From Muriicola soli (lineage in GTDB: Bacteria > Bacteroidota > Bacteroidia > Flavobacteriales > Flavobacteriaceae): a DNA stretch of 64,000 nucleotides. Under the pieces are notes generated by a model. It saw only the letters and a list, made by a program, of their open reading frames with translations, was not told the DNA's origin and ran no database searches. Within the stretch, counting starts at the first letter, position 1. Every line of letters begins with the position of its first letter. Below, one piece after another: positions 31,460 to 41,875 of the stretch. The translations under genes were made by a program, and so were the position numbers. The DNA is taken from contig NZ_CP035544.1 in the NCBI RefSeq assembly GCF_004139715.1, positions 2,421,501 to 2,485,500 of the forward strand, given 5' to 3'.

Positions 31460-32824
31460 ATGCCCAACGCGGTTTTGACGTATTGGAAACTCCATAAAGT
31501 TCCCATTCTTATTTCTTTACTGTGCGGCCTGTTTTACTATACTTTTGCCTACCATCTTGAGCGTTCAGACTTTACCCGACTTTTGGGGTTGTATCTGGCG
31601 TTATTTTTCCTCTGTTACAAGCTTATACAATTCGAAAAGTGGAATTACAAATTCCTACTTTTTCTGGGTATCGCATTTCGATTAATTTTTCTTGTTACCT
31701 CGCCTAATCTATCCCAGGATTTTTACAGGTTTATTTGGGATGGACAACTCATCAATATGGGCGTAAATCCGTATTTATACCTTCCTGTTGATCTATTGGA
31801 GAGTGCGGAAATTGTCATCCCTCAAGCAAAGTATTTGATAGAGGGAATGGAATCGCTGAGTGCCTCCAATTTTAGTAATTATCCCCCGCTTAGTCAGATG
31901 CTGTTCGGACTATGCGCTTGGCTTGGAGGAGGAGAAATACTAGGAAGTTTAATTGCGATAAGAGTAGTCTTACTCCTAGCCGATCTGGGAATTTTTTACT
32001 TCGGTCGGAAGCTATTAAAATTTGTCAACAAATCTCCCCACCTTATCTTTTGGTACTTCCTGAATCCCCTTGTAATTACCGAGTTAGGAGGTAATCTTCA
32101 CTTCGAAGGTGTGATGTTGTTCTTTCTGCTTTTCGCTTTGCATCTCATCGCTAATAATAAATGGCTTCTGGCTACGGTGCCCATGGCACTGTCCATTTCA
32201 GTAAAACTTATCCCTCTGATGTTCTTACCGCTATTTTTTAAATCCCTCGGTTTTAAAAAAGGATTGGTGTTCAATACCTTGGTTATGCTGCTTGTCATCG
32301 CCACAATTATTCCCTTTTACGATCCGGAATTTTCTCAAAATTACATGGCTACCCTTTCTCTGTGGTTCTCAAATTTTGAATTCAATGCAAGTATCTACAA
32401 TGTAGTTAAAAACCTCGGGGCTCGTATTGATCTGAAGCCCTGGGAGCTTATTAAGAGCTATGGAAGACTAATTCCGGTAATTGTAATCCTCTGGGTATGC
32501 TTGCTGAGTTACTTTCGAAAAAACAACTCAATGCGCATTCTGATTCAGTCTATGCTCTTTATTCTGGCTGTTTACTTTTTCCTATCTCCCACCGTTCATC
32601 CGTGGTACGTAATTTCTCTGTTAGTACTTTGCCTTTTTACGGATTACCGATTCCCTTTGGTCTGGTCAGCAACCATTGTTTTAAGTTATTCTGCATACAG
32701 AGGCGCTGAGGTAGAAGAGTCAATGGGATTTCTCATTATTGAATATTTATCGGTTTATGGGTTTTTCATCTACGAATTGTTTAAGCATAGGAGTTTTAAA
32801 TCGCTAATTCCCAAAAATGTATAG
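31460..32824 (+). CDS. GT-C type polytopic glycosyltransferase
   Basis: 454 residues with about ten to twelve hydrophobic helices. The first loop after helix 3 holds NLSQDFYRFIWDG, the acidic catalytic-loop pattern of GT-C enzymes that use polyprenyl-phosphate sugars. NPYLYLP and NYPPLSQ are further conserved loop elements, and STHP-like SPTVHPWY occurs near the C terminus. It resembles mannosyltransferases of the GT87/PIG-M range. It may use the product of the DPM1-like gene at 29147. It is transcribed separately, after the terminator. Confidence 0.85.
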   Translation: MPNAVLTYWKLHKVPILISLLCGLFYYTFAYHLERSDFTRLLGLYLALFFLCYKLIQFEKWNYKFLLFLGIAFRLIFLVTSPNLSQDFYRFIWDGQLINMGVNPYLYLPVDLLESAEIVIPQAKYLIEGMESLSASNFSNYPPLSQMLFGLCAWLGGGEILGSLIAIRVVLLLADLGIFYFGRKLLKFVNKSPHLIFWYFLNPLVITELGGNLHFEGVMLFFLLFALHLIANNKWLLATVPMALSISVKLIPLMFLPLFFKSLGFKKGLVFNTLVMLLVIATIIPFYDPEFSQNYMATLSLWFSNFEFNASIYNVVKNLGARIDLKPWELIKSYGRLIPVIVILWVCLLSYFRKNNSMRILIQSMLFILAVYFFLSPTVHPWYVISLLVLCLFTDYRFPLVWSATIVLSYSAYRGAEVEESMGFLIIEYLSVYGFFIYELFKHRSFKSLIPKNV

Positions 32825-32852
32825 GACAAAGGGGATAATTCAATATAATTTG

Positions 32853-32860
32853 TACATTTG
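32853..32860 (+). promoter_or_regulatory. Candidate -7 element of the arginine operon
   Basis: TACATTTG matches TAnnTTTG. No clean TTG occurs at the usual distance upstream, so the assignment rests on the -7 box and position. The leader ATG follows six bases later, implying a very short or absent 5' leader. Confidence 0.5.
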
Positions 32861-32866
32861 ACTCTC

Positions 32867-32950
32867 ATGAAAGCGAAATTTCACATTAGTACTGTAATCT
32901 CCACGCCTGTTCAGGCCCGGTATTTTGTGCCCGCACGTCGCCGCCCGTAA
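32867..32950 (+). CDS. Putative arginine leader peptide (attenuator ORF)
   Basis: 27 codons, reading MKAKFHISTVISTPVQ then ARYFVPARRRP and a TAA at 32948. Four of 27 codons are Arg (CGG, then CGT CGC CGC in a row), with the Arg triplet two codons before the stop. It is 86 bases upstream of the first gene of a complete arginine operon. CCC (32944-32946) can pair with GGG (32951-32953) across the stop codon, and GCCT/AGGC pair inside the ORF. I infer ribosome stalling at Arg codons as a sensor of arginyl-tRNA. I see no classical U-tract terminator downstream. Confidence 0.6.
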   Translation: MKAKFHISTVISTPVQARYFVPARRRP

Positions 32951-32965
32951 GGGTGTACTACTCTC

Positions 32966-33025
32966 ATGGAAATAGGTGAGTCCATTTCCGCATCGATCAT
33001 TAAGCCATTTACACTATTCGATTAA
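32966..33025 (+). CDS. Second small leader ORF before the arginine operon
   Basis: 19 codons, MEIGESISASIIKPFTLFD, in the same frame as the Arg-rich leader and preceded by the same nine bases (actctcatg) that precede and include the first ATG, exactly 99 bases apart. It stops 11 bases before the GNAT gene. A hairpin GGAAAT/ATTTCC (32968-32973 with 32984-32989) covers its first codons. It could be a translational relay or simply non-coding leader. Confidence 0.35.
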   Translation: MEIGESISASIIKPFTLFD

Positions 33026-33036
33026 TTTTATCAGCA

Positions 33037-33654
33037 ATGGATATCTTAATTGCTAACGAATCTCATATAAAATACGCTACTGTCATCAGCGAAACCATTT
33101 CGGAATCCGCTAAGGTGAGGGGTACGGGCATCGCCAAAAGAACGCCTGAATATATCATTAAGAGATTGGTCAACGGCAACGCGGTAATCGCCTTAGACAA
33201 GGACAAGTTTGCCGGCTTTTGCTACATTGAAGTATGGGGTCATCAAAAATTTGTTGCAAACTCCGGACTCATCGTACATCCCGATTATCGCAATCAGGGA
33301 CTGGCAAAAAAAATCAAAAAAGCCATCTTTGAATTATCGCGGAAAAAATTTCCCGAGGCAAAGATTTTTGGAATTACAACCGGACTTGCGGTCATGAAGA
33401 TGAACTATGAACTGGGATATAAACCGGTAACCTTTTCGGAACTCACAGACGATCCGGATTTTTGGAAAGGATGCCAGACGTGTAAGAATTTTGATATCCT
33501 TACCCGAACAGAACAAAAAATGTGCCTCTGTACCGGGATGCTTTTTGATCCCTCCAAAACAAATAAATACGAAAGCAGGAAGGTGAACAATAAAACCTTC
33601 CAGCGACTTAAGAGTATTAAAGAGCAGCTATTACTTAAAAAGAAAAAAGGCTAA
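33037..33654 (+). CDS. GNAT N-acyltransferase, first gene of the arginine operon
   Basis: 205 residues. GNAT core: ISESAKVRGTGI, VIALDKDKFAGFCYIE, LIVHPDYRNQGLAKKIKKA (acyl-CoA loop RNQGLA, about 85-90) and AVMKMNYELGYKPV. The C terminus carries four cysteines as CQTC (146-149) and CLC (163-165), a possible zinc site unusual for GNATs. It is one base upstream of argG. It probably supplies the N-acyl-glutamate (acetyl or succinyl) that starts the pathway, replacing a classical ArgA or ArgJ; this is inferred from position. Confidence 0.85.
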   Translation: MDILIANESHIKYATVISETISESAKVRGTGIAKRTPEYIIKRLVNGNAVIALDKDKFAGFCYIEVWGHQKFVANSGLIVHPDYRNQGLAKKIKKAIFELSRKKFPEAKIFGITTGLAVMKMNYELGYKPVTFSELTDDPDFWKGCQTCKNFDILTRTEQKMCLCTGMLFDPSKTNKYESRKVNNKTFQRLKSIKEQLLLKKKKG

Positions 33655-33655
33655 G

Positions 33656-34867
33656 ATGAATACCAAAGAAATCAACTCAAAAAAATTGGTTCTCGCTTAT
33701 TCAGGCGGACTCGATACTTCGTATTGTGCCATGCACTTGTCCCAGGACCTGGGCTATGAGGTACACGCCGTTAGTGTGAATACCGGAGGATTTTCTCCGA
33801 AGGAAATAGAGGAGATCAGAAAAAAGGCCCTTGCCCTTGGCGCGAAGTCATATACTTCCATCGATGCCGTTCAAAGCTTCTATGAGAAAGTCGTAAAATA
33901 TCTGATATTTGGGAATGTGCTTCGCAACAATACCTATCCCCTAAGTGTAAGTTCAGAACGTATTGTCCAGGCCATAGAGATTGCACGCTATGCTAAGCAA
34001 AATGGCGCAGCAGCCATTGCACATGGGAGCACCGGAGCCGGTAATGATCAGGTTCGCTTCGACATGATCTTTCAAATAATCGCTCCGGAAATAGAAATTA
34101 TTACCCCTATCCGTGACCGGCAACTATCCAGGGAAGAAGAGATCAGCTACCTGAAAGAAAGGGGTGTGAATTATTCCTGGGAAAAAGCAAAGTATTCCAT
34201 TAACCAGGGATTGTGGGGGACTTCTGTTGGAGGTGCGGAAACCCTTACCTCAGATCAAGGCCTTCCATCGGAAGCCTTCCCAAGTCAATTGAAAAATGAA
34301 AAATCACAGGATATAACCCTGACTTTTACCAAAGGGGAATTAACGGCAATAGACGGAGTTACCCAAACACCGGTTAAGAATATTGAGCAGCTGGAAAAAA
34401 TCGCATCATCCTTTGCTATTGGACGTGATGTACATGTAGGAGATACCATAATTGGGATAAAAGGGCGAGTTGGTTTTGAGGCAGCAGCACCTCTGCTGAT
34501 CATTAAGGCACATCATCTTCTGGAGAAACACACCCTCAGCAAATGGCAGCAATTTCAAAAGGAACAATTAGGTAATTTTTACGGGATGCTATTACATGAA
34601 GGGAACTACCTCGATGAAGTGATGAGGAATATAGAAGCCTTTCTTCAAGATGCTCAGAAAAACGTCAGTGGCCATGTATTTATCACTTTGTATCCCTACC
34701 GTTTCGAATTAAAAGGCATCAAGTCTGAACACGATCTTATGGCAGCCAGGTTTGGAAGTTATGGAGAAATAAATAAGGCATGGTCTGCGGAGGACGCTAA
34801 AGGTTTTATTAAAATATTGTCAAATTCCGGCAAAATTGCCAGTCAGATAAATAAGCAAAATGATTAA
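33656..34867 (+). CDS. argG: Argininosuccinate synthase
   Basis: 403 residues. The P-loop-like pyrophosphatase motif is LAYSGGLDTSYC (about 13-24). NTYPLSVSSERIVQAIEIA, GAAAIAHGSTGAGNDQVRFD and TPIRDRQLSREEEISYLKE bind aspartate and citrulline. WGTSVGGAETL is also conserved. It joins citrulline and aspartate using ATP. It overlaps argC by eight bases and follows the GNAT gene by one base, so tight co-expression is expected. Confidence 0.96.
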   Translation: MNTKEINSKKLVLAYSGGLDTSYCAMHLSQDLGYEVHAVSVNTGGFSPKEIEEIRKKALALGAKSYTSIDAVQSFYEKVVKYLIFGNVLRNNTYPLSVSSERIVQAIEIARYAKQNGAAAIAHGSTGAGNDQVRFDMIFQIIAPEIEIITPIRDRQLSREEEISYLKERGVNYSWEKAKYSINQGLWGTSVGGAETLTSDQGLPSEAFPSQLKNEKSQDITLTFTKGELTAIDGVTQTPVKNIEQLEKIASSFAIGRDVHVGDTIIGIKGRVGFEAAAPLLIIKAHHLLEKHTLSKWQQFQKEQLGNFYGMLLHEGNYLDEVMRNIEAFLQDAQKNVSGHVFITLYPYRFELKGIKSEHDLMAARFGSYGEINKAWSAEDAKGFIKILSNSGKIASQINKQND

Positions 34868-35834
34868 AGCAGGTATCATAGGTGGTTCGGGATACACCGG
34901 AGGTGAACTTATCAGGTTATTACTTCATCATCCGTCAGCAACCCTTGATTTTGTTTTCAGTACCACAAGGGCAGGAACGTCTATTTCAGAAACACATACC
35001 GATCTTCTGGGCACTACAACATTGAAGTTCACAGATAAGGTAAACCCAGATGCAGATGTCATTTTTCTATGTCTGGGACACGGGAATTCAACTCAATTCC
35101 TGCAGGATCATTCTTTTTCTGAAAAGACCAGAATAATTGACCTCAGCAATGATTTCAGGCTTGGGAAACAAAATACACTTGATAAAAGGAGTTTTGTTTA
35201 CGGACTACCGGAACTTCGCAAAGAAGAAATCTGCAAAGCAAAGAACGTGGCCAATCCTGGATGTTTTGCAACGGCTATTCAACTGGCGCTACTTCCACTG
35301 GCAAAAGCACAAATGCTCAACCATGAAGTACATATTAATGCCACCACAGGAAGCACGGGTGCAGGGGTTAGCCTGTCAAACACCACCCATTATAGCTGGC
35401 GGGAGAATAATATGTCGCATTACAAAGCATTTATCCATCAGCATCTAGACGAGATCAATGAAAGCCTGGAGCACTTTCAGCCCCAAAAAGGTAAACTTAG
35501 GTTTATTCCCAACAGGGGTAATTTCACCAGGGGTATTTGGGCAACGGCCTACACCAGATTCGAAGGAAAACAGGAAGAAGCAGATGCATTATACAAGGAT
35601 TATTACAAAGATGAACCTTTCACTCATGTCTCTGAGAAGGCTATCTCTTTAAAGCCGGTTATCAATTCAAACAATTGCCATTTGAACCTACTGGTCCACG
35701 ATGGCGTTCTCCTCATTGCCTCTGCCATTGACAACCTTTTGAAGGGAGCCAGCGGACAGGCAGTACAAAACATGAATCTGATGTTCGGTCTCCCGGAAGG
35801 TGAAGGATTACATCTGAAGTCGAGCATTTTTTAA
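34860..35834 (+). CDS. argC: N-acyl-gamma-glutamyl-phosphate reductase
   Basis: 324 residues. The Rossmann start is AGIIGGSGYTGGELIRLLL (about 4-22). VANPGCFATAIQLALLPL holds the catalytic Cys at about 135, and RFIPNRGNFTRGIWAT and NLLKGASGQAVQNMN are C-terminal signatures. It reduces N-acyl-glutamyl phosphate to the semialdehyde with NADPH. It starts eight bases inside argG. A 22-base gap follows before proC. Confidence 0.96.
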   Translation: MIKAGIIGGSGYTGGELIRLLLHHPSATLDFVFSTTRAGTSISETHTDLLGTTTLKFTDKVNPDADVIFLCLGHGNSTQFLQDHSFSEKTRIIDLSNDFRLGKQNTLDKRSFVYGLPELRKEEICKAKNVANPGCFATAIQLALLPLAKAQMLNHEVHINATTGSTGAGVSLSNTTHYSWRENNMSHYKAFIHQHLDEINESLEHFQPQKGKLRFIPNRGNFTRGIWATAYTRFEGKQEEADALYKDYYKDEPFTHVSEKAISLKPVINSNNCHLNLLVHDGVLLIASAIDNLLKGASGQAVQNMNLMFGLPEGEGLHLKSSIF

Positions 35835-35856: not shown

Positions 35857-36651
35857 ATGAAAATAGCAATAATTGGCGCAGGCAATCTAGGATTATCCAT
35901 AGCGAAAGGAATACTCCACACCAATGGTGCCACCACCATGTACCTTACCAAAAGACATATTGAAATCATTAAGGAATACGAAAAGTATGGAAACGTCACA
36001 GTTACCCAGGACAACAAGCTGGCCGTTAAGGAATCGGACGTACTCATCTTTGCAGTTCAGCCTGGGCATTTTGAGGGTATTCTCCAAGAAGTAAAGGAGT
36101 TCCTTACCGAAAAGCATGTGATCATTTCAACCATTACGGGATTCAGCTTAGAAAAAATCGAATCCATCATTGGTAAGGATGCATATATCATACGAAGCAT
36201 GCCTAATACAGCGATCTCCGTAGGGAAATCAATGACATGTCTTTGCAGTAATGAAGCCGGAGCCAAACGAATTGAGCTGGCCAAGGCAATATTTAACCGA
36301 ATGGGGCATTCCATGGAGATTCCGGAGTCACAAATGCAGGCGGCCACAGTGATTTGCGCCAGTGGGATTGCATTTTGGATGAGGCTGATCAGGGCCACTA
36401 CCCAGGGGGCTATCCAATTAGGATTTGATGCGAAAGAAGCCCAGGAACTTGCCATGCACACCTGTAATGGAGCAGCTTCCTTATTGATTGAATCGGGGAA
36501 TCATCCTGAGGAAGAGATAGACCGGGTAACAACACCTATGGGCTGCACTATTGAAGGTCTTAATGAAATGGAGCATCAGGGTCTGAGTTCCTCCTTAATT
36601 CGGGGAATTGTCGCATCCTTCGAAAAAATTAGTCAAATTAGAAAGGGGTAG
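35857..36651 (+). CDS. proC: Pyrroline-5-carboxylate reductase
   Basis: 264 residues. The NAD(P) motif is IAIIGAGNLGLSIAKGIL (about 3-20). IRSMPNTAISVGKSMT (about 112-127) and the C-terminal block TTPMGCTIEGLNEMEHQGL are P5C reductase signatures. It makes proline from P5C. Its place inside the arginine operon links proline formation to arginine supply, though a role on a pathway semialdehyde side product is also possible. Its stop is one base before argD. Confidence 0.93.
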   Translation: MKIAIIGAGNLGLSIAKGILHTNGATTMYLTKRHIEIIKEYEKYGNVTVTQDNKLAVKESDVLIFAVQPGHFEGILQEVKEFLTEKHVIISTITGFSLEKIESIIGKDAYIIRSMPNTAISVGKSMTCLCSNEAGAKRIELAKAIFNRMGHSMEIPESQMQAATVICASGIAFWMRLIRATTQGAIQLGFDAKEAQELAMHTCNGAASLLIESGNHPEEEIDRVTTPMGCTIEGLNEMEHQGLSSSLIRGIVASFEKISQIRKG

Positions 36652-36652
36652 T

Positions 36653-37780
36653 ATGGAATTGTTCGATGTATATCCTCTTTACAACATCACCCCGGCCTCG
36701 GCAAGGGGGGTCATTATAAAAGATGAGAGTGGCCAGGAATACCTCGATTTGTACGGAGGACACGCCGTAATTTCAATCGGCCATGGGCATCCTCATTATA
36801 TTAAAAGGATTAAGAATCAGATCGATAAGATTGGTTTTTACAGTAATGCCGTCCATAATCCCCTGCAACACGAACTTACCGAAAAACTTGGGAGAATATC
36901 GGGCTGTGACGACTACCATCTTTTTCTGTGTAATTCCGGGGCGGAAGCCAACGAAAATGCCTTAAAACTCGCGTCCTTTCATACAGGAAAAAGCAGAGTG
37001 ATCGCATTTAAGAACAGCTTCCACGGGCGTACCTCTGCCGCTGTGGCATCAACCGATAATCCTGCCATCAATGCCCCGATAAACAGGCAACAGCAGGTGA
37101 CATTCTTAACCTTTGAAGATATTGATGCGCTTAGAAAAGAAGTAGCAAAAGGTGATGTATGTGCCGTTATTCTGGAAACGATTCAAGGCGTAGGCGGGCT
37201 CGACGAACCCTCTTCATCTTTTTGCGCAGAAATCGCTGAACTTTGTAAAAAACACCAGGTGGTATTGATAGCAGACGAGGTTCAATCCGGTTTTGGGAGA
37301 AGTGGGAAGTTTTTCGCATTTCAGCATCATAACATAACACCTGACATTATTTCCATAGCCAAAGGAATGGGTAACGGCTTTCCCGTTGGAGGGATTTTGA
37401 TCCACCCGAAGATTGAAGCTAAATACGGTTTGTTGGGCACCACCTTCGGGGGTAACCATCTGGCCTGTGCTGCTACTCTGGCCGTCCTTGAAGTTCTCGA
37501 AGAAGAAAATCTGATGGCGAATGCCACGGAGATCGGAGCGTATTTTAAAGAATGTGCCAAACAAGTTCCACAAGTAAAAAGGATTAAAGGCAAGGGGCTC
37601 ATGCTGGGACTCGAATTCGGGTTTGAAGTAGCCGATCTGCGGAAAAACCTCATCCTTAATCAGCATATCTTTACAGGGAGTGCCAAGGATAAAAAAGTGC
37701 TGCGTGTTCTACCTGCATTGAATATTGAGAAAGTCCATATCGATACATTTTTTACCTCATTAAAACAGGAATTGGAATGA
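36653..37780 (+). CDS. argD: N-acylornithine aminotransferase
   Basis: 375 residues, class III PLP aminotransferase. The start at 36653 follows a purine-rich GAAAGGGG; an in-frame extension to 36608 would overlap proC. GGHAVISIGHGHPHYI, FLCNSGAEANENALKLA, KNSFHGRTSAAVA, IADEVQSGFGRSG and SIAKGMGNGFPVGG (PLP Lys) are all present. It transaminates N-acyl-glutamate semialdehyde to N-acyl-ornithine. Its stop overlaps the next start as ATGA. Confidence 0.95.
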   Translation: MELFDVYPLYNITPASARGVIIKDESGQEYLDLYGGHAVISIGHGHPHYIKRIKNQIDKIGFYSNAVHNPLQHELTEKLGRISGCDDYHLFLCNSGAEANENALKLASFHTGKSRVIAFKNSFHGRTSAAVASTDNPAINAPINRQQQVTFLTFEDIDALRKEVAKGDVCAVILETIQGVGGLDEPSSSFCAEIAELCKKHQVVLIADEVQSGFGRSGKFFAFQHHNITPDIISIAKGMGNGFPVGGILIHPKIEAKYGLLGTTFGGNHLACAATLAVLEVLEEENLMANATEIGAYFKECAKQVPQVKRIKGKGLMLGLEFGFEVADLRKNLILNQHIFTGSAKDKKVLRVLPALNIEKVHIDTFFTSLKQELE

Positions 37781-38718
37781 AACACTACCTCAGCATTGAT
37801 GATATCGATTCTATACCTTCATGGCTTTCACTGGCCGCAGAATGTAAAAAGGCGCCTCTTAAGTACAGGAAACTCGGAGAAGGAAAAGTCTTGGGGCTTT
37901 TGTTCTTTAACAATAGTCTAAGGACCCGACTGAGCACCCAAAAAGCTGCTTTCCATCTGGGGATGCATTGTATGACCATGAATTTTGGGAGCGAAGGTTG
38001 GGCTCTTGAATTTGAAGACGGGACTATTATGGATCAGGGAAAGGCAGAACATATCAAAGAGGCAGCACAAGTGGTTTCACAGTATTGCGATGTCTTAGGG
38101 GTACGTGCTTTTGCCTCCTTAACGGATAAGGAAAAAGATGAGGCCGAAATGGTGCTGAACGGTTTTAAAAAGTATGCATCCATCCCTATCTTAAATATGG
38201 AAAGTGCAACCGGACATCCCCTACAGGCCTTTGCAGACCTGATCACGATCTCAGAACACAGCCAGAAGAAGAACCCGAAAATAGTTCTATCATGGGCTCC
38301 TCATCCTAAAGCATTGCCTCATGCCGTGGCTAATTCGTTTATAAAGATGATGGGGCAGAATCCTCAATTTGAATTTAGCATAACACACCCCATGGGATAT
38401 GAACTTAATCAGGATCTTGTCCAGCACATTCCGGTGTCATACGATCAGAACAAAGCCCTTAAAGACGCCGATTTTGTCTACGTCAAAAACTGGAGTGCCT
38501 ATCAGCCCTACGGTGCCGTATTAAATAATGACCCACACTGGATGCTGACTCAGGATAAACTCGGGCAGGCAAAGTTTATGCACTGTCTGCCGGTAAGGCG
38601 AAATGTAGTGGTGGAAGACCGGGTTCTCGATGGAAATAATTCTCTGGTAATACAACAGGCCAACAACAGAACCTATGCCGCCCAGGTAGCCTTACTCAAA
38701 ATACTTGAATCCTTATGA
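37777..38718 (+). CDS. argF': N-acyl-L-ornithine carbamoyltransferase (ArgF')
   Basis: 313 residues. Carbamoyl-phosphate site FFNNSLRTRLSTQKA (about 43-57), GVRAFA, TGHPLQAFADLITI and HCLPVRRNVVVEDRVL define the Bacteroidota/Xanthomonas acyl-ornithine carbamoyltransferase branch, as opposed to classical ArgF. In the Bacteroides succinylornithine enzyme, as I recall, Pro90 sets acyl specificity, while the acetyl enzyme has Glu at the equivalent site. Here residue 90, in MDQGKAEH, is Ala by my count, so the acyl group is undetermined. It overlaps both neighbours by four bases. Confidence 0.92.
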   Translation: MKHYLSIDDIDSIPSWLSLAAECKKAPLKYRKLGEGKVLGLLFFNNSLRTRLSTQKAAFHLGMHCMTMNFGSEGWALEFEDGTIMDQGKAEHIKEAAQVVSQYCDVLGVRAFASLTDKEKDEAEMVLNGFKKYASIPILNMESATGHPLQAFADLITISEHSQKKNPKIVLSWAPHPKALPHAVANSFIKMMGQNPQFEFSITHPMGYELNQDLVQHIPVSYDQNKALKDADFVYVKNWSAYQPYGAVLNNDPHWMLTQDKLGQAKFMHCLPVRRNVVVEDRVLDGNNSLVIQQANNRTYAAQVALLKILESL

Positions 38719-39494
38719 AACCTGCCCTATCTGTTATTAAAATTGGAGGAAATATTATCGAAGATAGTACAGAGCTATCGCGATTCCTGTCCTCTTTTTC
38801 GCGAGTTCAGGGCCCTAAAATACTGGTTCACGGGGGCGGAAAAAAAGCTACTTCCCTGAGCGAAAAACTCGGCATCAAACCCTCCATGGTAAAAGGCAGG
38901 CGAATAACCGACGCTCAGGCTCTCGAAGTAGCCATTATGGTATACGCCGGACTGGTCAACAAAACTATCGTTAGCAAATTACAGGCCTTGCAATGTAATG
39001 CCCTGGGGCTAAGTGGAGCGGATGCAGCTGTGATCAAAGCAATAAAGAGACCGGTGAAATCTATCGATTACGGCTTCGCCGGAGACATCGTCTCCATACG
39101 AACAAAAACCTTGCTGAGTTTTTTGGAAACAGGATTGGTTCCGGTTTTTTGTGCCCTTACCGATGATGGACAGGGACAATTACTCAACACCAATGCCGAT
39201 ACGATCGCATCTGAACTTGCTATTGCCCTCAGTTCAGAATACAGAACCACACTTTACTACTGTTTCGAAAAACCAGGAGTGCTGGCAAACGTCTACGATG
39301 AGGCTTCCGTAATTTCACATATCAATAAACAGGCTTATTACAGCCTGCTGAGGGAGAAGCAAATAAGTGAGGGTATGCTTCCTAAATTGGAAAATTGCTT
39401 TCATGCGCTAGACCATTCAGTGCACAAGGTATGTATCGGAGATATCACTATGTTGCAAGCAAAATCATCAAATTTTACAACATTGACCTTATGA
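38715..39494 (+). CDS. argB: Acetylglutamate kinase (N-acyl-glutamate kinase)
   Basis: 259 residues of the amino-acid kinase family. KIGGNIIED (about 9-17) and VHGGGKKATSLSEKLG (about 37-52) bind ATP and the substrate. MVKGRRITDAQALE, NALGLSGADA and LLNTNADTIASELA follow, and MLPKLENC near the C terminus is typical. It phosphorylates the N-acyl-glutamate gamma-carboxylate and is the usual feedback point in the pathway. No N-terminal arginine-sensing helix is evident. Both ends overlap neighbours by four bases. Confidence 0.94.
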   Translation: MKPALSVIKIGGNIIEDSTELSRFLSSFSRVQGPKILVHGGGKKATSLSEKLGIKPSMVKGRRITDAQALEVAIMVYAGLVNKTIVSKLQALQCNALGLSGADAAVIKAIKRPVKSIDYGFAGDIVSIRTKTLLSFLETGLVPVFCALTDDGQGQLLNTNADTIASELAIALSSEYRTTLYYCFEKPGVLANVYDEASVISHINKQAYYSLLREKQISEGMLPKLENCFHALDHSVHKVCIGDITMLQAKSSNFTTLTL

Positions 39495-40561
39495 CTACGG
39501 AAATATCAACACTCTGCAATGAGGCTATTGCGCTTTTAAAGGACTTGATCGCCACTCCATCTTTTTCCTCAGAAGAAGATGGTACGGCACTCGTACTCGA
39601 ACAGTGGTTTAAGAATCATCAAATTCCATTTAAAAGAAAGAAAAACAATATATATGCTTTTAATAAGCACTACGATGAGAACAAACCCAATTTACTTCTC
39701 AATTCACATCACGATACAGTTAAGCCCAATACGGCTTATACCAGAGAGCCATTTCAGCCGGCAATAGAAGAGGGCAAACTCTATGGATTAGGTAGTAATG
39801 ATGCCGGAGGGGCGTTAGTCTCACTCATTGCAACATTTACTCATTTCTACGAAAAAGAGAATCTCTCGCATAATCTGATTATAGTCGCTTCTGCAGAAGA
39901 AGAAAGTTCAGGTCCGGATGGTTTAAATTCAATGTTAAAGATCCTTCCGAACATCGATGTGGCTATTGTAGGAGAGCCCACCCTGATGCAGCTGGCCATT
40001 GCTGAAAAAGGACTGGTCGTTTTTGATGGAAAGGTCAGTGGAACCCCTTCCCATGCCGCACATCCCAACGCCGATAATGCCATATACAATTGCATAGATG
40101 TACTCAGTTGGTTTAAAGATTTTCATTTTCCAAAGGTATCTGAAGTCTTAGGGGCAGTAAAATTAACAGTCACACAGATCAATGGAGGAAGTCAGCACAA
40201 TGTTGTGCCTGCGGAGGTTAATCTCGTTGTTGATGTAAGGGTCAACGATTGCTATACCAACCAAGAAATAGTAAGCATACTGGAAGATCAGGCTCCCTGT
40301 AAACTGATTCCGCGTTCTCTTCACCTGAATTCTTCGTCCATCCCAAAGGAGCATCCATTGGTTAAAAGTGGCCTGGCTTTAGGGAGAAGTACGTACGGCT
40401 CTCCAACTTTGTCTGATCAGGCTGCTCTGAGTTGTTCCTCCCTTAAACTTGGACCGGGAGACAGTACACGCTCTCACAGCGCAGACGAGTATATTTACGT
40501 GTCTGAAATTGAGGAGGGAATCGAATTATACATTAAATTATTAGATGGTTTCTTGCTTTGA
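39491..40561 (+). CDS. argE: M20-family deacylase (N-acyl-citrulline/ornithine deacylase)
   Basis: 356 residues. The start at 39491 overlaps the argB stop as ATGA. Metal-binding motifs of the M20 fold are LLNSHHDTVKPN (His and Asp), GLGSNDAGGALVS (bridging Asp), ASAEEESSGPDGL (Glu pair) and GPGDSTRSHSADEY (His). HVVPAE-type dimer residues appear as GSQHNVVPAEVNLVVDVR. In the acyl-ornithine carbamoyltransferase pathway it would remove the acyl group from acyl-citrulline. A 30-base gap precedes argH. Confidence 0.92.
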   Translation: MTTEISTLCNEAIALLKDLIATPSFSSEEDGTALVLEQWFKNHQIPFKRKKNNIYAFNKHYDENKPNLLLNSHHDTVKPNTAYTREPFQPAIEEGKLYGLGSNDAGGALVSLIATFTHFYEKENLSHNLIIVASAEEESSGPDGLNSMLKILPNIDVAIVGEPTLMQLAIAEKGLVVFDGKVSGTPSHAAHPNADNAIYNCIDVLSWFKDFHFPKVSEVLGAVKLTVTQINGGSQHNVVPAEVNLVVDVRVNDCYTNQEIVSILEDQAPCKLIPRSLHLNSSSIPKEHPLVKSGLALGRSTYGSPTLSDQAALSCSSLKLGPGDSTRSHSADEYIYVSEIEEGIELYIKLLDGFLL

Positions 40562-40591: not shown

Positions 40592-41875
40592 ATGAAACTT
40601 TGGGATAAAGGAATGAAAACCGATGAGAAGATTGACAGATTTACTGTGGGCAACGACAGGGAGCTGGATCTCTTCCTGGCGGCTTATGACGTAAAGGCTT
40701 CCATGGCGCATTGTAAGATGTTACATGCTATTGGTTTGCTCAGCAATGAAGAAAATAATGCTTTGTTATCCGAATTGGATTCGATTGGAAAAACTGTTGA
40801 AAAAGGAGAGTTTACCATTGAGGAATCCTTTGAAGACATGCATTCCAAGATCGAGTTTCTGCTGATAGACCGACTAGGCGATACGGGAAAGAAAATTCAT
40901 ACCGCCCGGTCGAGAAATGACCAGGTACTGGTGGCCATCCAACTCTATGTCAAAGACGAATTAACGGAGCTGAGACAGCAAGTAACTGAGCTATTCGATT
41001 TATTGCTCCGTCTTGCCGATAAACATAGTAATGTTCTCCTCCCGGGTTATACCCATTTGCAGGTGGCAATGCCTTCTTCTTTCGGCCTTTGGTTCTCTGC
41101 CTATGCGGAGAGTCTTATTGACGATATGATTCTGATCAATGCTGCTTCTGATATTGCCGATCAGAATCCCTTGGGGAGTGCGGCCGGATACGGTAGTTCT
41201 TTCCCGATAGACCGGGCGATGACCACAGAGGAATTAGGATTCAAATCCCTGAAATACAATGTTGTTGCAGCTCAGATGGGAAGAGGAAAGGTAGAAAGAG
41301 TAACGGCTACAGCCTTAGCCAGCGTAGGGGCTACCTTGGCCAAAATGGCCATGGATATATGTCTGTATATGAGTCAGAATTTCGATTTTATATCCTTTCC
41401 TGACGAACTTACGACGGGCAGCAGCATTATGCCTCATAAAAAAAATCCCGATGTCTTTGAGTTGATCCGAGGCAAGTGTAACGTCATACAAGCCCTACCC
41501 AATGAATTGTCTATGATGCTTACCAATTTGCCAAGTGGCTACCACAGAGATCTTCAGGTAACAAAGAATAGTCTGATACCCGCATTTCAGGAATTAAAAG
41601 CTTGTCTCGATATGACCACCTTTAGCTTAAGGAAAATCAAAGTGCGCGAAAATATTTTAGACGATCCCAAATACAACCTGCTCTTTACCGTAGATGCAAT
41701 GAATGAACTGGTGCAGAAAGGTGTTCCTTTTCGTGACGCTTACCGTCAAATAGGAAATGAAGTAGAAGGTGGAAATTTTAAGTCAAGAAAAAATGCCCGA
41801 CATACTCATTTGGGCAGTATTGGAAATCTTTGTCTTGATGAGATCAGACAAAAAATGAAGAATTATTCAGAATAG
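40592..41875 (+). CDS. argH: Argininosuccinate lyase
   Basis: 427 residues of the fumarase/aspartase superfamily. TARSRNDQVLVAIQLYV (about 108-124), PGYTHLQVAMPSSFGLW with the catalytic-region His, NPLGSAAGYGSSFPIDR, and the signature loop GSSIMPHKKNPDVFELIRGK with the catalytic Ser. It completes arginine synthesis, releasing fumarate. It is the last pathway gene. It is followed by 66 bases containing TATATTTA-like sequence and then the BLUF gene. Confidence 0.96.
   Translation: MKLWDKGMKTDEKIDRFTVGNDRELDLFLAAYDVKASMAHCKMLHAIGLLSNEENNALLSELDSIGKTVEKGEFTIEESFEDMHSKIEFLLIDRLGDTGKKIHTARSRNDQVLVAIQLYVKDELTELRQQVTELFDLLLRLADKHSNVLLPGYTHLQVAMPSSFGLWFSAYAESLIDDMILINAASDIADQNPLGSAAGYGSSFPIDRAMTTEELGFKSLKYNVVAAQMGRGKVERVTATALASVGATLAKMAMDICLYMSQNFDFISFPDELTTGSSIMPHKKNPDVFELIRGKCNVIQALPNELSMMLTNLPSGYHRDLQVTKNSLIPAFQELKACLDMTTFSLRKIKVRENILDDPKYNLLFTVDAMNELVQKGVPFRDAYRQIGNEVEGGNFKSRKNARHTHLGSIGNLCLDEIRQKMKNYSE

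Follow-up and report, generated by a model that had tools for sequence, protein, structure and literature searches.

The arginine operon of Muriicola soli lies behind a short leader ORF whose terminal Arg codons run into a two-hairpin RNA, and we consider it likely that this region is a cis-acting arginine sensor, in which the leader would sense charged tRNA-Arg through ribosome stalling at the first hairpin (hp1). As judged by comparison with relatives, the frame of the leader bears the marks of translation, the conserved Arg codons that adjoin hp1 are nearly always CGY (CGU or CGC), and the RNA formed by hp1 and a second hairpin (hp2) is conserved 5′ of the GNAT-argG gene pair. The window, meaning the whole stretch of DNA that was analysed, comprises 64,000 nucleotides of contig NZ_CP035544.1 (positions 2,421,501 to 2,485,500), and its features are collected in Table 1.

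Table 1. Features of the arginine leader and operon, in positions of the window
Feature	Position	Strand	Basis or detail
Promoter box TACATTTG	32853..32860	+	sequence; matches the Bacteroidota -7 box TAnnTTTG
Leader ORF, 27 codons, peptide MKAKFHISTVISTPVQARYFVPARRRP-stop	32867..32950	+	ATG 32867, TAA 32948-32950
Hairpin hp0, GCCTG-TT-CAGGC, inside the leader ORF	32905..32916	+	sequence
Whole RNA element as modelled, 59 positions	32932..32990	+	covariance model, 80.4 bits
Control codons CGT CGC CGC, three Arg	32936..32944	+	leader codon counts
Hairpin hp1, CGCCC (32942-32946), GTAA (32947-32950), GGGTG (32951-32955)	32942..32955	+	comparative alignment
Hairpin hp2, GGAAAT-A-GG-TGAGT-CC-ATTTCC: six-pair outer stem (32968-32973 with 32984-32989), bulged A, inner GG:CC, loop TGAGT	32968..32989	+	comparative alignment
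GNAT-family acetyltransferase, first gene of the operon	33037..33654	+	Pfam Acetyltransf_1 and Acetyltransf_7 above cut-off
argG, argininosuccinate synthase	33656..34867	+	Pfam Arginosuc_synth above cut-off; NCBIfam argG models just below
argC	34860..35834	+	TIGR01850 above cut-off
proC	35857..36651	+	TIGR00112 above cut-off
argD-type aminotransferase	36668..37780	+	TIGR00707 best match, below cut-off; start chosen by hand
N-acetylornithine (or succinylornithine) carbamoyltransferase (argF′)	37777..38718	+	NF003384 best match, just below cut-off
argB	38715..39494	+	TIGR00761 above cut-off
argE/dapE-type deacylase	39488..40561	+	TIGR01910 best match, below cut-off; start chosen by hand
argH	40592..41875	+	TIGR00838 above cut-off

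The leader ORF and its promoter

An initial annotation, made from the letters of the window, had placed a 27-codon ORF with four Arg codons upstream of an arginine operon, and this description holds. The Arg codons are a single CGG and then a run of three, which the annotation had put just before the stop; the run is indeed consecutive, but one Pro codon (CCG) sits between it and the TAA. The stop lies 86 bases from the GNAT-argG-argC-proC-argD-argF′-argB-argE-argH operon. Of the 611 ATG ORFs of 15-45 codons in the whole window (both strands, nested starts counted), none but the leader carries RRR within its final six residues.

The -7 box of Flavobacterium psychrophilum is described as occupying -12 to -5 from the transcription start (PMC9723704). 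Placed in the same way, the box in front of the leader predicts a start at ~32865, two bases 5′ of the ATG, and this position of the box would make the leader nearly leaderless. Of 35 loci, 17 have such a box near the leader ATG (background 1.1%); the gap between box and ATG is 7 nt in 15 of the 17 and 6 nt in the window.

A protected frame with conserved Arg codons

Most counts below refer to 79 loci, taken from the best 80 of at least 585 relatives with the exclusion of locus L161 (n = 78 for some folding and pairing counts). Over the 12 codons before hp1, which amount to 948 codons per frame, the frame entering hp1 contained no stops and 228 Arg codons; the other two had 22 and 42 stops and 46 and 41 Arg codons, or 64 stops and 87 Arg codons in 1896 codons. 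The initial annotation had named the lack of a conserved ORF or of Arg codons in relatives as evidence against its reading, and neither lack was seen. Its expectation for an alignment of relatives was also borne out: Arg codons and pairings are conserved and the N-terminus drifts, as in the nine loci read from the window's genus, where the leader end FVPxRRRP-stop is constant and the N-terminal half is not. An ORF with the marks of translation and with codons for the end product is what the broad class of ribosome-mediated amino-acid leaders has, and both were found here.

The choice among Arg codons is strongly skewed. CGY accounts for 215 of the 228 leader Arg codons (94%; the others are CGA 5, AGA 2 and AGG 6), compared with 150 of 636 (24%) in the GNAT genes of the same 79 loci, where AGA is commonest (282 of 636). 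Since AGA would encode an identical peptide, we infer that a tRNA is the sensed thing, and the CGY preference could partly serve RNA pairing. The codon at position -1 before hp1 is Arg in 72 of the 79 loci, with its third base free (CGU 48, CGC 23, CGA 1), and the remaining seven have Pro (5), Ile (1) or Phe (1).

Two covarying hairpins at the leader stop

The annotation had pointed to two short pairings, CCC with GGG around the stop and GGAAAT with ATTTCC beyond it, which correspond to hp1 and hp2 and are both backed by comparative covariation. The 5′ arm of hp1 is made of the last Arg codon and the Pro codon, with the TAA inside the tetraloop, and 94.6% of hp1 cells are paired in a 98-sequence alignment. 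In hp2, changes on both sides were found at all six outer pairs and at one of the two inner pairs, the inner pair being changed in this way in four of 98 sequences, including the degenerate L200; the hp2 core is near-invariant (GGUGNGUCC in 90 of 99 rows). The second ORF that the annotation had seen beginning at the GGAAAT pairing (ATG 32966) is probably no gene, as its ATG is the foot of hp2 and is absent in relatives such as loci L007 and L012. Read-through of the leader stop and a second ORF in general were also rejected: the spacer between the feet of hp1 and hp2 varies from 11 to 14 nt (79/79 loci, model alignment), so the frame is not kept across the two hairpins.

For the element as a whole, 96.5% of cells are paired in 98 distinct sequences, compared with 87.3% when partners are shuffled, and the covariation score is 0.328, compared with 0.147 for shuffled and at most 0.078 for slid partners; the alignment behind the covariation, spacer and pair counts was fitted to the structure model. 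No shuffle out of 500 matched the observed cells paired, both-sided cell changes, pair types or covariation score, and two of 500 matched the number of pairs with a both-sided change, a shuffle count not being a probability. One hp1 pair is G-U in 87 of 98 sequences and would read A-C on the other strand, which places the structure on the plus strand. The hp1 loop is GUAA in 59 of 99 rows and UUU, UUA, CUAG or others elsewhere, so that hp1 keeps its shape with varying loops and the tetraloop itself appears unnecessary. Folded alone, the 181-nt leader of the window is unremarkable (z 0.44), and the support for the structure is thus comparative; the element alone exceeded its own shuffles in stability at most loci, with z < -1 in 68 of 79 and z < -2 in 36.

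A third hairpin, hp0, also covaries (z -5.9), as found in the helix covariation tests over 72 loci, from which seven with an unusual hp2-GNAT distance were excluded; within the 33 loci with a single leader, the class to which the window's type belongs, its z was -1.9. In folding models of 78 loci, mean pairing of hp2 was 0.53-0.56 when the upstream part was covered by a ribosome, as opposed to 0.37 in free RNA, a gain in hp2 formation that is modest and model-dependent.

Distribution among relatives

The GNAT gene was found in 34 of the 60 genomes near and including the window's own, 30 of which yielded loci. Both hairpins stand directly 5′ of GNAT in all 26 loci of the same family (Flavobacteriaceae), and hp1-hp2 was absent from the four GNAT loci of other families. 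Among the best 80 of at least 585 relatives, which include Zobellia, Maribacter, Cellulophaga, Polaribacter, Tenacibaculum, Winogradskyella, Leeuwenhoekiella and Formosa, 79 GNAT loci carry the element. The sole miss is Salinimicrobium sediminis (L161), with a degenerate hp2; L200 is degenerate as well, and in L205 the element lies ~300 nt upstream of the gene, unlike its usual place.

Genome scans used the covariance model of 59 positions, which was also run on 100 sources, namely these best 80 and 20 others chosen by hand. The genome of the window has a single significant copy, and reuse of the element elsewhere in it was rejected (next-best match E 2.39). One copy each was found in 180 of 299 family genomes, representing 148 of 236 genera. 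An order-wide scan of 246 genomes, their share from the family unspecified, gave 18 matches, 16 in the family and two weak ones outside it (E 0.02-0.03), and in one of these genomes (G044) the match is on a different contig from GNAT. In the 30 family genomes searched for both, element and GNAT always agree (19 with both, 11 with neither).

A regular expression, used for reading only, located the element in 112 of 123 loci; the 11 misses are chance matches (L032-L034), loci of other families (L027-L030) and four loci that do carry the element (L026, L115, L119, L120). The pattern AGGTGNGTCC alone is uninformative, since it occurs in 383 of 397 genomes.

The element also appears dispensable. 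The genus g147, putatively Flavobacterium, has GNAT-argG, and its 12 loci gave no good match to the model (best E 0.057), one of them (L215) including just 184 nt before argG. The g147 loci that were read have an Arg leader of different sequence before GNAT-argG. An apparently diverged form was seen, partly by eye, in L222 and L225, with the leader MKTTKLHTNFSTRKTLALTSRSERSTF-stop or similar and GGCC-GUAA-GGUC ending RP-stop followed by a hairpin whose loop is UCCGC, not UGNGU. Outside the family, Arg-rich short ORFs such as MKQVNIYTPSERPVLTIGIGRFSPLDRFRREPNRQ-stop precede GNAT with no hp1-hp2 in L028 and L029 (family f2) and in L027 (family f15), and these ORFs suggest that Arg leaders may predate the hp1-hp2 element.

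A second Arg leader upstream

About 35 loci among the best 80 of at least 585 relatives have a first Arg leader of ~17-24 codons 5′ of the leader described above (L183, L193, L187, L189 and L175 are among them; an example peptide is MKNLKNKIRRAIPSLPARRRRCF-stop). The division into 35 single and 44 double loci is rough, as at least L168, L181, L198, L208 and L210 of the "single" loci have a first leader. In the 44 loci, codons 13-32 of the second-leader frame contain 3 stops in 880 codons, compared with 149 in 1760 codons of the other frames. The initial 40 nt of the first leader pair with the 34 nt upstream of the second leader's start codon, where the start of the first leader meets a U-rich tract such as ACGUAAUUUUAAUUUUUUU. 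For the 36 of the 44 flagged double loci that were tested, at least one of which (L153) probably has a false first leader, this pairing scored -11.05 with its own partner and -7.45 (sd 0.35) with swapped partners, and none of 100 swaps was as low; the swaps keep composition and not kinship, so this is good evidence for the pairing and not final. The start codons of these 36 second leaders are UUG (20), GUG (10) and AUG (6). The window's genus has the second leader only, adjoining the promoter.

The arginine operon and the search for ArgR

The operon behind the leader looks complete by its domain matches, although some gene assignments are best matches under a curated cut-off. The GNAT protein is, from the position of its gene, a probable N-acetylglutamate synthase. 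ArgG scored 260.3 bits against a cut-off of 268.2 for TIGR00032 and may belong to a somewhat diverged branch.

The ArgR domain (PF01316) was found in none of 37 genomes near the window's own, 30 of them at least 90% complete, and the same search matched 9 of 14 control genomes, a Bacteroides among them. Taken along with the leader, this negative result for ArgR, the regulator that was searched for, suggests a shift of arginine control to the RNA, and the leader thus probably provides most of the arginine-specific control of the operon.

A proposed mechanism

We propose the following action of hp1 and hp2 on the operon, which we infer from their arrangement. As the predicted transcription start lies just 5′ of the ATG, a ribosome could load on the leader while the RNA emerges. 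When charged tRNA-Arg reading CGY is scarce, the ribosome would stall on the CGY run and cover the 5′ arm of hp1, leaving hp1 open. When arginine is plentiful, the ribosome would reach the stop in the hp1 loop and depart, and hp1 would form next to hp2, the two together making up the off state. Since stalling would open hp1 and release would form the off state, low arginine would switch the operon on. A spacing of 11-14 nt is expected between a pause hairpin and RNA polymerase, and the hp1-hp2 spacing would fit a polymerase at the foot of hp2, held by hp1 as a pause hairpin. The off signal would then not depend on an intrinsic terminator; candidates for its carrier are Rho, an RNase and a protein recognising the hp2 core. 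An excess of C over G between hp2 and GNAT (C 16.3%, G 5.8%) was considered as a mark of Rho sites and is undiagnostic, as 18 of 28 upstream stretches in the window, the operon's own included, are similar.

A more far-reaching reading is that the stalled ribosome is read through the stop-bearing hp1 and a fixed-core hp2 bound by a dedicated factor, with neither terminator nor competing helices; that many relatives stack two Arg sensors, with the start of the downstream one under control of the upstream one; and that the arrangement stands in for ArgR across much of the family. This is a tentative proposal, to which we give a little less than an even chance.

Alternative explanations

Translational control is the alternative that survives best, though we hold it to be unlikely. 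Here hp2 would be bound by a ribosome or a factor and so govern initiation at the GNAT start ~50 nt downstream, modulated by hp1 or the leader ribosome. The distance from hp2 to GNAT is tightly kept (41-55 nt in 71 of 79 loci), which leaves GNAT translation as a candidate output, and the 16S tail of the same genome, GGAACACCTCC, contains CACCU, the complement of the core AGGUG. However, three of the four sequences with a changed inner pair have GATG cores, which lose the 16S match but keep the pair (in one GATG core, L119, the other inner pair of hp2 is lost), and Bacteroidota ribosomes sequester their anti-SD sequence, which we also count against this explanation. Pairing between the 3′ arm of hp2 and the GNAT start was rejected because the two do not covary (-2.83 for own and -2.88 for swapped partners).

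The near-invariant core upon a covarying stem would also suit a riboswitch-like RNA that binds a protein or ligand, with the Arg codons incidental. The protected frame, the Arg excess and the CGY choice all reach upstream of the hairpins, and we find such an RNA distinctly improbable. Positions 32800-33100 gave no Rfam 15 match up to E 5 (at the gathering cut-off, the window as a whole gave one tRNA only), which counts against known families only.

The RRP-stop peptide itself could stall the ribosome in response to free arginine. TnaC is an example of such nascent-peptide arrest, and a Pro codon follows the hp1 Arg in 75 of 79 loci, with the stop directly next in 64. In the remaining loci, the stop is further downstream and the frame passes through hp1, as in Salegentibacter (L179, RRTFVRV-stop) and Gillisia (L162, RRLVRV-stop), where the Arg codons are kept and an extra CGU is present. 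The end of the peptide thus varies (RPLGV-stop is another form) but the CGY codons persist, a bias for CGY over AGA would be useless to a peptide, and the Pro codon doubles as an arm of hp1. No conserved arrest peptide independent of codon choice was found, and peptide arrest seems to us very doubtful.

Least probable by a further step, and hardly to be credited, is a classical trp/his-type attenuator, in which ribosome stalling allows pairing between regions 2 and 3 and thereby blocks an intrinsic terminator: a control-codon leader does adjoin a hairpin ahead of a biosynthetic operon, and the minimum-energy fold of the window pairs UCGCC, from the Arg codons, with GGUGA in the hp2 core, but six or more T in 8 nt follow hp1 in 5 and hp2 in 1 of 79 loci, and the constant 3′ arm of hp1 is not complementary to the variable arms of hp2. 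Nor did 18 duplex tests of the leader, spacer and hp1 3′ arm against the stretch from the end of hp2 to GNAT reveal a clear covarying helix (z -2.2 to 2.1), the value of -2.2, which came from the final 30 nt of single-class leaders, being taken as noise; the same test detects hp2 (z -14.5, positive control) and hp0. Pairing of the Arg codons with the hp2 core (CGCC:GGUG) was rejected as a general feature, with a mean probability of 0.18 and a median of 0 over 78 loci, and it is broken by GAUG cores; it joins two invariant stretches, which puts it beyond judgement by covariation, and may be transient. For the output step of hp1-hp2, no terminator was found in the 79 loci and no competing helix in the 18 tests. 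Of the ribosome-sensing layout claimed in the annotation, the translated-looking Arg leader is supported, and the usual attenuator, with its U-tract and covarying competing helix, is not.

Significance and relation to known systems

With the sensing leader that we favour, a large bacterial family with no ArgR detected gains a probable means of arginine control. The RNA of this leader is compact and conserved, with 59 positions and a single copy per genome in 148 of 236 sampled genera, so a partner could be fished for, and near-exclusive CGY beside an AGA-preferring gene makes the sensed tRNA testable. The concept of the ribosome-sensing leader would be broadened by one that operates with neither a terminator nor an antiterminator.

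Attenuators of the trp/his type have a leader ORF with control codons for the end product, as found here; unlike them, this leader has no terminator or detected antiterminator helix and carries a fixed-core second hairpin instead. The initial annotation had regarded arginine control by such a leader as little described in Flavobacteria. No report of an Arg leader in Flavobacteria was found in the literature searched, to which supplementary tables or motif surveys might add one, but attenuation before amino-acid operons has been reported: "strong clues" of leader-peptide attenuation are given for F. psychrophilum (PMC9723704), putatively a member of the same family, with the same proposed class of control. 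Its main text names no Arg leader and has "arginine" once, concerning cyanophycin.

Two motifs in the table of PMC2864571 are related at the level of their listing. Bacteroid-trp RNA (RF01692) is listed as a Bacteroidetes motif. The GUCCY-hairpin, which carries no Rfam number there and was compared by its listed name only, is listed for Bacteroidetes and Proteobacteria, and hp2 also contains GUCC, but mostly followed by A or G; the two may still be one motif.

In rbfL of Staphylococcus aureus, as described in PMC13009471, the Arg codons of a short leader ORF likewise sense arginine shortage, but the codons are AGA/AGG, and a stalled ribosome masks the site of the next one, which represses a biofilm regulator at the level of translation. 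The Salmonella speF leader with orf34, as described in PMC6386406, differs from ours in its target (ornithine decarboxylase, not an Arg operon), in its peptide and in a far longer leader, with the gene at nucleotide 516. It is similar in that its mRNA leader has a short ORF containing Arg codons in a row, a hairpin 3′ of the stop and no intrinsic terminator found in that work, and its output is reported to involve Rho, translation and RNase G (PMC6386406).
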